DNA of 64,000 nucleotides from Limimaricola variabilis (GTDB taxonomy: Bacteria; Pseudomonadota; Alphaproteobacteria; Rhodobacterales; Rhodobacteraceae), in contig NZ_JACIBX010000002.1 in the NCBI RefSeq assembly GCF_014195545.1, positions 186,001 through 250,000 of the forward strand, written 5' to 3'. Of this stretch, positions 11,741 to 18,844 are shown piece after piece (position 1 is the first letter of the stretch; every line of letters begins with the position of its first letter). A program made the position numbers and the translations under genes. The notes under the pieces were generated by a model. That model was not told the DNA's origin. It searched no databases and worked only from the letters and a program-made list of their open reading frames with translations.

Positions 11741-11769
11741 TTGACGATCGCCCATCCCGTGCCAGCTTT
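11741..11769 (+). promoter_or_regulatory. Candidate sigma-70-type promoter for the downstream RNA
   Basis: TTGACG at 11741-11746 matches a -35 hexamer; 17 bases downstream is AGCTTT (11764-11769), a poor -10. It lies in a locally AT-richer stretch between the esterase gene and the structured RNA. Transcription would start around 11776, ahead of the extended Shine-Dalgarno. The weak -10 makes this tentative. Confidence 0.3.
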
Positions 11770-11789
11770 GGATCAGGCGAAACCAACTG

Positions 11790-11918
11790 AAAGGAGGTGA
11801 TCCAGTGTCGAGAAGGGTATTGGAGAAATGTGTCGGGACAGCTTGGGAGGCGCGCGGCTGAGGCAGCCCTCGGGCGCACACCCCCCAGGTGGATCACGGT
11901 CTAACCGACCCACCTCCT
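11790..11918 (+). ncRNA. Structured RNA element with 16S rRNA tail antisense and split 16S-tail mimic
   Basis: Bases 11790-11805 (AAAGGAGGTGATCCAG) are the exact reverse complement of the canonical 3' end of 16S rRNA (CTGGATCACCTCCTTT), far longer than a normal Shine-Dalgarno. Downstream, TGGATC (11890-11895) and ACCTCCT (11912-11918) reproduce the same rRNA tail in two pieces. They can pair with 11799-11804 and 11792-11798, forming a helix of 13 bp whose 3' strand is interrupted by a 16-base insert holding a small hairpin (GGTC 11898-11901 with GACC 11907-11910). A further small hairpin (GGCTG/CAGCC, 11856-11868) sits inside. A strong terminator follows. The pairing is seen directly; the function (leader RNA, sRNA or ribosome decoy) is inferred. 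Confidence 0.5.
11805..11861 (+). CDS. Possible 18-codon ORF behind an ultra-strong Shine-Dalgarno
   Basis: A GTG at 11805 opens a frame encoding MSRRVLEKCVGTAWEARG, then TGA at 11859-11861. The spacing from AGGAGG (11792-11797) is 7 bases, ideal for initiation. The peptide has one Cys and one Trp and no signal. I do not recognise it. An alternative overlapping frame starts at ATG 11828 and ends at 11919 (30 codons), but it has no ribosome site of its own. Whether the peptide is made, or the initiation region acts only as an RNA element, cannot be told. Confidence 0.35.
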   Translation: MSRRVLEKCVGTAWEARG

Positions 11919-11928
11919 GATCTTCGAA

Positions 11929-11963
11929 GGGTCGTCCCCCATTCGCCGGGGACGGCCCTTTTT
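11929..11963 (+). terminator. Rho-independent terminator
   Basis: An 11-bp stem (GGGTCGTCCCC at 11929-11939 with GGGGACGGCCC at 11948-11958, one G-U pair), 8-base loop, followed by TTTTT. It ends the structured RNA 53 bases before arfB, so either the RNA is separate or it is an attenuated leader. Confidence 0.85.
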
Positions 11964-12015: not shown

Positions 12016-12426
12016 ATGCTGAGGATCGACGACCGTATCACCATCGAGGATTGGGAGCTGACCGAGCAGTTCACCCGCGCGTCCGGCCCCGGCGGCCAGA
12101 ACGTCAACAAGGTGAGCACCGCGGTGGAGCTGCGCTTCGAGGCGGAGCGCTCGCCCAACCTGCCCGACCCGGTCAAGCGGCGGCTGAAGCGGCTGGCGGG
12201 GCGGCGCTGGACCAATGACGGCGCGGTGGTGATCTTCGTGCAGGACACCCGCCACCAGCCCCGCAACCGCGAGATCGCCCGCGAGCGGCTGGCCGAGCTG
12301 ATCACCAAGGCGACCGAGGTGCCGAAGCGCCGGATTCCGACCAAGCCGACCAAGGGAAGCGTCAGGCGGCGGCTGGAGGCGAAGAAGCAGCGGGGCGAGG
12401 TGAAGGCGCTGCGGCGCGACCCCTAG
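12016..12426 (+). CDS. arfB: Alternative ribosome-rescue factor (peptidyl-tRNA hydrolase ArfB/YaeJ)
   Basis: Releases the nascent chain from ribosomes stalled on broken mRNA. The 136-residue protein has the catalytic GGQ in SGPGGQNVNKVS (GGQ near residues 27-29), the class I release-factor-like domain, and a C-terminal basic tail (from about residue 100: KATEVPKRR to KALRRDP) that in ArfB enters the empty mRNA channel. Length fits ArfB. The start ATG at 12016 is preceded by TTTGGAGACAGGC, a usable ribosome site. The gene lies just downstream of a structured RNA that mimics and complements the 16S tail. Confidence 0.93.
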   Translation: MLRIDDRITIEDWELTEQFTRASGPGGQNVNKVSTAVELRFEAERSPNLPDPVKRRLKRLAGRRWTNDGAVVIFVQDTRHQPRNREIARERLAELITKATEVPKRRIPTKPTKGSVRRRLEAKKQRGEVKALRRDP

Positions 12427-12499: not shown

Positions 12500-12739
12500 T
12501 CAAAACACCCTGAACGTCTGCGTCGTCAGCGTCCGCTCGATCCCCTCGATGCCCATCAGGTGCTCGTTGAGATACATGCCGATATCCTCGCCCTCGGGGA
12601 CGTAGATCTTCACCAGCAGGTCGAAGGCACCCGAGGTCGAATACAGCTCGGAGTGGATCTCCTTGAGCGCGATGGCGTCGGCCACCTTGTAGGTGGTGCC
12701 GGGCTTGCAGCGGATCTGGACGAAAAGCGGGAGCGACAT
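12500..12739 (-). CDS. Stand-alone Lrp/AsnC ligand-binding (RAM) domain protein
   Basis: A 79-residue protein consisting only of the Lrp/AsnC effector-binding domain (beta-alpha-beta-beta-alpha-beta, with SGAFDLLVKIYV and the terminal TQTFRVF). It lacks a helix-turn-helix. Such lone RAM proteins oligomerise and bind amino acids, and some act as enzymes or modulators. The start is ATG 12739, only 8 bases after the pncB stop (12748 on the minus strand), so it appears to be the last gene of a pncA-pncB operon. The ligand is unknown. Confidence 0.82.
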   Translation of the reverse strand: MSLPLFVQIRCKPGTTYKVADAIALKEIHSELYSTSGAFDLLVKIYVPEGEDIGMYLNEHLMGIEGIERTLTTQTFRVF

Positions 12740-12747
12740 GGCGGACC

Positions 12748-14034
12748 TCAGACGGTGACGGGGATGGGGGATTGCGGGCCGACGTCGAAGACGCGCTTGT
12801 AGCGGGCGATCTCGTCCGCCGGGCCCATCGCCTTCTCGGGGTTGTCGGAGAGCTTCACGGTGGGCCGCCCCTCGGCCGCCACCGCCTTGCAGACGAGGCT
12901 GAAGGGCGCCAGCGCGTCGCCGGCCAGCCCCTTGAAGTCGTTGGTCAGCATCGTGCCCCAGCCGAAGCTCACCTTCACGCGGTCCGAGAAGCGGGCATGC
13001 AGTTCGAGGATCTTCTCGGCGTCGAGCCCGTCGGAGAAGATCACCAGCTTCTCGCGCGGGTCCTCGCCGCGGTCCTGCCACCAGCGGATCGCCGTCTCGG
13101 CCCCGGTCGCGGGATCGCCGCTGTCGATGCGGATGCCGGTCCAGCCGGCGAGCCAGTCGGGCGCGCGCTCGAGGAAACCTTCGGTGCCATAGGTGTCGGG
13201 CAGGATGATGCGCAGGTTGCCCTCGTGCTCGTCATGCCAGTCGGCCAGCACCTTGTAGGGCGCCTCGGCCAGCTCGGCGTCGCTGTCGGCGAGCGCGGCA
13301 TAGACCATCGGCAGCTCGTGCGCGTTTGTGCCGATCGCCTCGAGATCGCGGTTCTTGGCGATCAGGCAGTTCGAGGTGCCGGCAAAGCTCGTCCCCATGC
13401 CTTCGAGCATCGCCTGCACGCACCAGTCCTGCCACAGGAAGGAATGGCGGCGGCGGGTGCCGAAATCGGCGATCCTGAGGCCCTGGGTGCCGCGCAGCCG
13501 CTCGACCTTCTCCCAGGTGCGGGTCATGGCGCGGGCATAGAGCACCTGCAGCTCGAACCGGCCCATGTCGTTGAGCACGGCGCGCGAGCGCAGCTCCATC
13601 AGCACGGCGAGCGCCGGAATCTCCCACAGCATCACCTCGGGCCAGGCGCCCTCGAAGGTCAGCTCGTATTGCCCGTCGCGCTTCTCGAGATGGTAGGGCG
13701 GCAGGCGCAGCCCCTCGAACCACTCCATGAAGTCGGGGCGGAACATCTGCCGCTTGCCGTAGAAGGTGTTGCCCCTGAGCCAGGTGCTTTCGCCACGGGT
13801 GAGCGAGAGCGAGCGGATATGGTCGAGCTGCTCGCGCAGCTCGCCCTCATCGATCAGCTCGGCAAGGCGGATCGACTTGGTGCGGTTGATCAGGCTGAAG
13901 GTGACCTGCGTGGTCGGGTGGTTGCGAAACACCGACTGGCACATCAGCAGCTTGTAGAAATCGGTGTCGATGAGCGAGCGGACGATCGGGTCGATCTTCC
14001 ACTTGTGGTTCCAGACGCGGGTCGCGATGTCCAT
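12748..14034 (-). CDS. pncB: Nicotinate phosphoribosyltransferase
   Basis: Converts nicotinic acid and PRPP to nicotinate mononucleotide (NAD salvage). 428 residues, usual length. The opening [17 protein letters not shown] and the [10 protein letters not shown] segment are family-typical. The segment [11 protein letters not shown] contains the His that is autophosphorylated by ATP in PncB. A second conserved region, [12 protein letters not shown], binds the phosphoribosyl moiety. It overlaps the pncA stop by one base (TGATG), showing translational coupling of consecutive steps: nicotinamide deamidation, then phosphoribosylation. Confidence 0.97.
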
Positions 14035-14636
14035 CAGCCCAGCACCACGCCGGCGTCACCCATCGCCTGCCGCGCCGCGCCAAGGCTGCCGTCGAGGTCG
14101 ATCCCGCGCGAGAGGCTCTCGATCACCGTGACCGCGTAGCCGAGCTTCGCCCCGTCGAGCGCGGAGTAGTTGACGCAGAAATCGGTGGCGAGACCGACCA
14201 GCGTGATCGCGGTGATGCCGCGCTCGGAGAGGTATCCGTGCAGGCCGGTCGGGGTGGCGCGGTCGTTCTCGAAGAAGGCCGAGTAGCTGTCGATCTCGCG
14301 GCGAAACCCCTTGCGGATGATCAGGTCGGCATCGAGGCGCAGGTCAGGGTGGAAGGCGGCACCCTGCGAGCCCTGAACGCAATGATCGGGCCAGAGCACC
14401 TGCGGGCCATAGGGCATCTCGGTCATCGTCATCGGCGCCGCATCGTCATGCTGGCTCGCGAAGGAGAGGTGGTCGGCCGGGTGCCAGTCCTGCGTCAGCA
14501 CCACGGCGCGAAACTCGTCCATCAGCGCGTTGATGCCCGGAACGATCTCGTCGCCGCCCTGCACCGCGAGCGCGCCGCCGGGGCAGAAGTCGTTCTGCAT
14601 GTCGATGACGATCAATGCCTCGTTGGCGGGGCGCAT
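14034..14636 (-). CDS. pncA: Nicotinamidase
   Basis: Hydrolyses nicotinamide to nicotinic acid. 200 residues of the isochorismatase fold. Catalytic elements visible: the Asp in IDMQNDF (about residue 12), the metal-binding [10 protein letters not shown] (Asp/His/His), and the nucleophile Cys in [13 protein letters not shown]. The catalytic Lys is likely in LIIRKG. It lies first in the pncA-pncB-RAM operon. No regulatory site was identified upstream (14637-14687). Confidence 0.95.
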
Positions 14637-18782: not shown

Positions 18783-18785
18783 TGC

Positions 18786-18844
18786 TGGTATCCTTGCAGA
18801 TAAGCGCCTCTCGTTGGGGAGAGGTGTCCCGTCGCCGCAGATAC
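18786..18844 (-). ncRNA. serC leader RNA candidate
   Basis: Alphaproteobacteria are known to carry a conserved structured leader before serC (Rfam serC motif) whose last stem covers the ribosome site. Here the leader RNA contains a 6-bp hairpin (plus-strand CCTCTC 18807-18812 with GAGAGG 18819-18824) and a GTATC segment (complement of 18840-18844) able to pair with GATAC, which overlaps the AAGGA ribosome site 5-14 bases from the serC start. A second TTATC segment (complement of 18799-18803) can pair with the same target, giving alternatives. Identity rests on position and this architecture, not on a covariance search. Confidence 0.6.

Follow-up and report, generated by a model that had tools for sequence, protein, structure and literature searches.

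A predicted Rhodobacteraceae small RNA distantly related to CC2171, with an extended Shine–Dalgarno head, an 18-codon ORF and a predicted fold that masks the translation start

The kind of RNA analyzed here is already known as CC2171, catalogued by Rfam as a Caulobacter sRNA (RF01867). In the portions of the literature available to us CC2171/RF01867 appears as table entries, and our search, with subscription papers mostly outside its coverage, found no description of its ORF or function. Nor did the literature search find in print a 16S-tail head serving as the start of a mini-ORF, a class-wide spread of such an RNA or a masked branch in Rhodobacteraceae. Caulobacter, the model member of the class, is reported to have Shine–Dalgarno (SD) sequences at only 24.6% of genes (PMC4117421, available part). 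A near-invariant ribosome-binding head on a usually single-copy RNA, spread through a class whose model member uses few SDs, gives the element its interest.

The rnTrpL/peTrpL leader RNA of Sinorhizobium, the subject of PMC7298713, resembles the RNA considered here: it is short, ends in a terminator and carries a small ORF preceded by an SD. Our RNA differs in that it is not an amino-acid attenuator before a matching operon, its ORF has no run of one amino acid, and its neighbours vary. Pos19 of Rhodobacter sphaeroides is also similar: it is 219 nt long, has a terminator and contains a small ORF that is translated. Its gene, however, is flanked by cxp and fadB, it depends on RpoE, and its candidate ORFs measure 135 and 150 nt (PMC5036791, available part). 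Pos19 was rejected as the identity of our RNA because the locus is different. In Staphylococcus aureus, extended SD sites with longer 16S-tail pairing aid weak start codons, according to the accessible part of PMC13009471; those sites belong to Firmicute mRNAs, whereas here we deal with one stand-alone RNA of a bacterial class.

An Rfam scan at cut-off of the window (the whole analyzed stretch of 64,000 nt from Limimaricola variabilis) gave nothing at the site. A permissive scan returned RF01867 with 39.8 bits, short of the 75 bits that Rfam's curated cut-off demands; the E-value was 5.1e-7 when 501 bases were searched and 8.8e-7 over the whole genome. The alignment is full-length (model positions 1-159): the head is identical letter for letter from GAAAGG to GUGUC, with GAAAGGAGGUGAUCCAGUGUC common to both RNAs, and a terminator stem ends both; however, the part between head and terminator aligns weakly and has different inner helices. 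Judged by this alignment, the RNA is a distant homologue of CC2171, from a branch that falls under the Rfam cut-off.

Matches to RF01867 at E 0.001 or better were found in 61 of 289 genomes of the class (9 above cut-off) and, among 14 control genomes, in one, Caulobacter vibrioides. The extended SD motif, searched in 398 genomes of the phylum, was present in 76 of 135 Alphaproteobacteria and in none of 263 genomes from other classes (the 135/263 split is a hand count of scan rows). There was one copy per genome, except in one genome with two (G048; C1:805112 and C1:2922051). The 21-mer GAAAGGAGGTGATCCRRTGTC matched at least 119 stretches; among the matches listed, 115 are from genera that we take to be alphaproteobacterial and four are labelled only Proteobacteria or Pseudomonadota. 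Within the family, a stricter pattern occurred in 124 of 198 genomes, once in each.

The locus set numbered 175, or 170 after merging of identical cores; L023, L074, L096 and L101 were lost in extraction. Comparisons within the family used 60 loci: 20 obtained from family genomes and 40 grouped by peptide pattern as clade R, of which a few carry no closer label than Alphaproteobacteria, Proteobacteria or Pseudomonadota. In the family, a model built from clade R (R1) gave matches at E 0.001 or better for 56 of 61 genomes, 49 of them at 1e-20 or better, partly by construction, as 17 of the 22 model rows came from same-family genomes; seven family matches were weak, and those of G696 and G713 may be chance. 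Of 46 loci given from other groups, R1 recovered 37 with an E of 0.001 or better, with rough E-values and again partly by construction, these loci having been fetched by the shared 21-mer. It also found loci above the RF01867 cut-off, e.g. L076, L130 and L106. Six contigs labelled viral (L183-L188) carry the 21-mer; five resemble the alphaproteobacterial RNA and are perhaps host flanks, and in L187 the same extended SD is followed by a longer, different ORF. An Inquilinus contig holds a Whalefall-1 RNA (RF01762, 44 bits; L118:7753-7804).

An earlier note on this DNA had described a 16-base antisense of the 16S rRNA tail. We saw that this sequence, AAAGGAGGTGATCCAG, is exact at 11790-11805 (+), but that the match is one base longer: over positions 11789-11805 (+), GAAAGGAGGTGATCCAG, all 17 nt are complementary to the 16S tail CTGGATCACCTCCTTTC, the reference being the 16S 3′ region of one same-family genome (L189). 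A 39-mer of S. meliloti in the available part of PMC6943124 contains the same tail. A 16S 3′-region probe matched in 1 of 31 relatives; an Rfam 16S search, positive in only 9 of 14 controls, gave no match in the window genome or in 7 other genomes of the genus, and none of three GGAGGTGATCCAG sites in the window genome is 16S. Other genome sites with GGAGGTGATCCAG (L002, L003) seem by eye to be internal to coding regions. We infer that the 16S tail of the window organism probably matches that of the family.

Within the window AAAGGAGGTGATCCAG is the only match at three or fewer mismatches (0.19 expected), and AAAGGAGGTGATCC has a single exact occurrence in the window genome. The computed duplex of the SD head with the 16S tail reached -32.8 kcal/mol, compared with -24.6 kcal/mol for the strongest of 42,639 window 18-mers sampled away from the element; that runner-up lies around 4546 (+). 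A chance origin of the complement was ruled out by the window match count, the class-restricted motif and the duplex energies. A true 16S end on the reverse strand was rejected too, since the RNA features map to the + strand and the Rfam scan of the window gave no rRNA match.

The 16S antisense is the SD region of an 18-codon ORF, a point absent from the earlier note. The core AGGAGG (11792-11797) of this extended SD precedes a GTG start (11805-11807) with a spacing of 7 nt, and the ORF (VSRRVLEKCVGTAWEARG; 11805..11861, +) ends in TGA at 11859-11861. The SD core was near-invariant among the loci, with the caveat that the extraction pattern itself fixed positions 0-8. Divergent members (L195, L199, L203-L205) kept AAAGGAGGTG and lost ATCC; thus, the full 17 nt is not essential.

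A length of 18 codons was kept in 56 of the 60 family loci. The clade-R rule demanded 18 codons, but the leftovers held no R-like peptide of other length; among the 20 family members added afterwards, four have another length. Codon 19, compared over 56 distinct ORFs, was TGA in 26, TAG in 21, TAA in 5 and another codon in 4; as it varies among stops and is never TGG, a stop is preserved at this place. The peptide is another matter. In clade R the three codon positions were equally variable, and synonymous changes showed a mild excess (0.358 vs 0.262 expected), one wrong frame giving a similar ratio; in the Sphingomonadales group S they were depleted (0.212 vs 0.261). These figures argue that the peptide is not strongly conserved. 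Core residues L, E, V, G and T do recur in clade-R peptides; the peptides of other groups differ in look, and ORF codons 1-2, 5-7 and 13-15 are at least partly inside conserved helices.

We consider the element a predicted stand-alone RNA gene of ∼190 nt with its own terminator. A possible -35 box, TTGACG at 11741..11746 (+), was read from the sequence and has a similar TTGAC at the same place in several relatives; it would set the RNA start near 11776. A sigma-70 consensus scan returned no promoter at its threshold. The predicted intrinsic terminator (11926..11963, +) has a 14-pair stem at 11926-11961 and a T run at 11959-11963, in agreement with the RNA end near 11963 proposed earlier. Its stem covaries in relatives, with both-sided changes in 8 of 13 pairs; 51 of 170 loci had no terminator by the rule used.

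The minimum free energy fold of the window RNA reached -89.3 kcal/mol (z -3.35), with 1 of 200 shuffles as good. The fold contains a start-codon hairpin (11801..11824, +; 11801-11808 with 11817-11824); over 22 relatives 97.7% of its cells are paired, and the changes are almost exclusively one-sided. The strongest covariation was observed in helix P2 (11841..11890, +), which joins ORF codons 13-15 (11841-11847) to the 3′ half of the RNA (11884-11890): five of its seven pairs change on both sides, and one pair is UA in 8 loci, CG in 7, AU in 2, GC in 1 and unpaired in 4. A small hairpin at the stop codon (11861..11870, +; 11861-11863 with 11868-11870) had 89.4% of cells paired. In the three inner helices, taken together for 22 loci (alignment A1), pairing was kept in 91.7% of cells, and both-sided cells numbered 26 vs 9.4 in shuffles (0/500), a count that leaves out the SD helix and the terminator; sliding the helix partner lowered pairing to 60.1% or less. 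Partition-function occupancy in clade R, computed for at most 26 loci per clade (26 of the 40 in R), was 0.95 for the SD core vs 0.71 in shuffles and 0.89 for the start codon vs 0.55. A closing helix of codons 3-5 with the pre-terminator segment gave -10.4 in 22 of the 40 clade-R loci, compared with -6.2 in between-group and -11.1 in within-group swaps; it is missing from the clade-R consensus fold. RNAalifold helices 1 and 2 pair the SD with ACCGRCC-CC instead of CACCTCC, an effect of a one-column shift of the anti-SD in some alignment rows; they were excluded as support.

In the window fold the SD is paired, through GGAGGTG (11793-11799), with a downstream anti-SD strand, CACCTCC (11911..11917, +). 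A 7-mer able to pair with GGAGGTG was present in 54 of the 60 loci vs 14.7 expected, and strict ACCTCC in 29 of 60 vs 3.3 expected. When anchored on TAAC (49 of 60 loci), the strand read CACCTCC in 17 loci, CATCTCC in 14 and CGCCTCC in 5, with other strings or none in 13; the three named forms differ only at positions where G-U keeps the pairing. The loci failing the 7-mer test were L191, L192 and L203, which keep ACCTCC, L197 and L198, which have lost it, and L071. At SD base 8, A stood opposite T in 3 of 39 loci, C opposite G in 3 of 6, and G opposite C or T in 9 of 9. Two-sided covariation of the SD:anti-SD helix is weak because the SD itself hardly varies.

The earlier note had also proposed that a mimic of the 16S tail in two pieces, TGGATC and ACCTCCT, separated by a GGTC/GACC hairpin, forms a 13-bp helix with the antisense. 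The pieces (11890-11895 and 11912-11918) and both arms are where it placed them, and its broader idea, one structured RNA holding the 16S-tail complement together with a possible masking strand, agrees with the conservation of both in the family. The fate of the two pieces in relatives was unequal: ACCTCC is kept beyond chance, but TGGATC (11890..11895, +) was found in 8 of 60 loci. The split helix itself is disfavoured, as TGGATC is rare and the bases of its partner GATCCA are in part claimed by the conserved start-codon hairpin; the mimic is thus better seen as a single anti-SD strand, to which TGGATC may add in the window genus. In two loci the sequence beyond the ORF was noticed to include an almost exact copy of the 16S tail (GGATCACCTCC in L124, z -5.0; GGATCACCTC in L202). 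One of the works that PMC6943124 cites states in its title that GAUCACCUCC is recognised by the GTPase Era, and one could speculate that Era might bind such copies.

The other loci were labelled by peptide pattern as groups C (CC2171-like), S (Sphingomonadales), M and B. In groups C and S a pairing joins the stretch that follows codon 2 to one that precedes a G-rich run, at or near the terminator start. This closing helix, which covaries, had at least 5 bp in 71 of 81 loci and at least 7 bp in 58 of 81 (control counts 21-33 with permuted strands, 2-10 with scrambled strands); one of its pairs is UA in 32 loci, GC in 31, CG in 6 and UG in 2, the 10 loci without the helix being left out. As the helix lies inside the ribosome footprint of the start codon, initiation and closure would be expected to be mutually exclusive. 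SD duplexes with downstream segments reached p < 0.05 in 52% of 40 loci in R, 40% of 47 in C, 43% of 28 in M, 3% of 34 in S and 0 of 7 in B; in C and M the SD-pairing segment mostly begins within the ORF. In S, M and B whole-RNA occupancy of the SD did not exceed that of the shuffles, and in C it fell below it (0.67 vs 0.75, p 0.011); in the seven loci of group B the start codon alone showed more pairing than its shuffled controls (p 0.016). A class-wide SD occlusion was therefore rejected. Seen in R, and not in C, S, M and B, masking appears on this evidence to be a Rhodobacteraceae trait, and it sets the window branch apart from the CC2171-like group C.

With SD and start codon both within conserved helices, the Rhodobacteraceae RNA resembles an SD-sequestering translational switch, which may be restricted to this family. 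We favour the reading that the element is a ribosome-gated mini-mRNA or sRNA; in its fuller form, an autonomous short RNA gene of the Rhodobacteraceae branch of the CC2171-related family that acts as a ribosome-gated mini-mRNA, we give it a probability of about 55%. Once transcribed, the RNA would by default keep its SD paired to the CACCUCC strand downstream and its GUG start closed in the local hairpin. The tail of a 30S subunit would then pair over 17 nt, take the SD and open the fold; it could win since the duplex energy of -32.8 kcal/mol compares with about -17.8 kcal/mol for the internal partner. Translation would run through 18 codons up to the fixed stop before the 3′ half, and the act of translation, not the peptide, would be what is selected. 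Against a mini-mRNA counts that most ncRNAs of Caulobacter arise from intergenic regions, which are reported to be untranslated (PMC4117421, in the part available). If ribosome gating is real, the element offers a directly testable case of an RNA sensing the translation machinery, easily deleted and probed.

A broader role, which we hold unlikely, is that of a class-wide RNA gauging free, mature 30S subunits, whose occupied and free forms would differ in fates or targets, the internal anti-SD of Rhodobacteraceae sharpening the threshold. Since the pairing of the SD with the 16S tail extends approximately to the end of the tail (the position of the mature end relative to the match being our assumption), occupancy would report ribosome supply. 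The same over-long SD could instead make the RNA a decoy that binds 30S subunits and stalls or titrates them, the ORF merely placing a start codon. The 17-nt complement with its start codon at 7-nt spacing, a duplex stronger than that of any site sampled elsewhere in the window (-32.8 vs -24.6 kcal/mol) and the near-invariant core, fixed in part by the extraction pattern (positions 0-8), all fit such a decoy; yet it has no need of a fixed 18-codon length or a preserved stop, some members have a shorter SD, and the RNA would have to be about as abundant as free 30S; we regard the decoy as unlikely. In a further reading the locus is a common protein-coding gene whose mRNA, equipped with a strong SD, specifies a peptide of 18 residues: 18 codons are kept in 56 of 60 loci while the stop codon varies, and the L, E, V, G, T core recurs in clade R. 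However, the equal variability of codon positions in R, the depletion of synonymous changes in S, the different-looking peptides of other groups and the codons at least partly engaged in conserved helices (1-2, 5-7, 13-15) make a selected peptide decidedly unlikely.

Very improbable, in our view, is a trans-acting sRNA whose CACCUCC silences the SDs of mRNAs, its own SD keeping it inactive until ribosomes bind. The C-rich strand is conserved in the family, and other alphaproteobacterial sRNAs (GsrN, CcsR) act through CCUCC loops; but in the predicted fold the strand is buried, and masking is not class-wide. Just as improbable is a leader or attenuator in which translation of the short ORF controls read-through into arfB, the gene of an alternative ribosome-rescue factor (12016..12426, +; NCBIfam NF006718, E 3e-55) that lies outside the RNA and starts ∼50 nt past the terminator. 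A ribosome sensor ahead of a ribosome-rescue gene would make sense, and in the stretch searched 30 of the 40 clade-R loci are followed by arfB; however, ∼1.5 kb downstream of L020, L021, L025 and L026 gave no arfB match, and neither the window fold nor the consensus fold contains a structure competing with the terminator. In the examples surveyed from the other groups the downstream Pfam matches were RNB-domain (RNase R-like; Bosea, Methylobacterium), DUF188, aminotransferase, DnaX and putative carbonic anhydrase genes. The varying neighbours and the terminator argue against an arfB leader.

That survey of other groups covered ten neighbours by Pfam, one of them without any match; it also met a TMEM175-like gene downstream on the opposite strand, and SMC or acetyl-CoA synthetase genes upstream. 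In the window the upstream neighbour is a phytase-like gene (PF13449). Downstream of one locus (L013) a full arfB match is followed, farther on, by three shorter partial matches to its C-terminal part. The window positions 12500-14636 carry, all on the minus strand, genes for a protein with an Lrp/AsnC ligand-binding domain (PF01037), a nicotinate phosphoribosyltransferase and a nicotinamidase, and a serC leader RNA (RF00517, 68.3 bits) was found at 18783-18834 (-).
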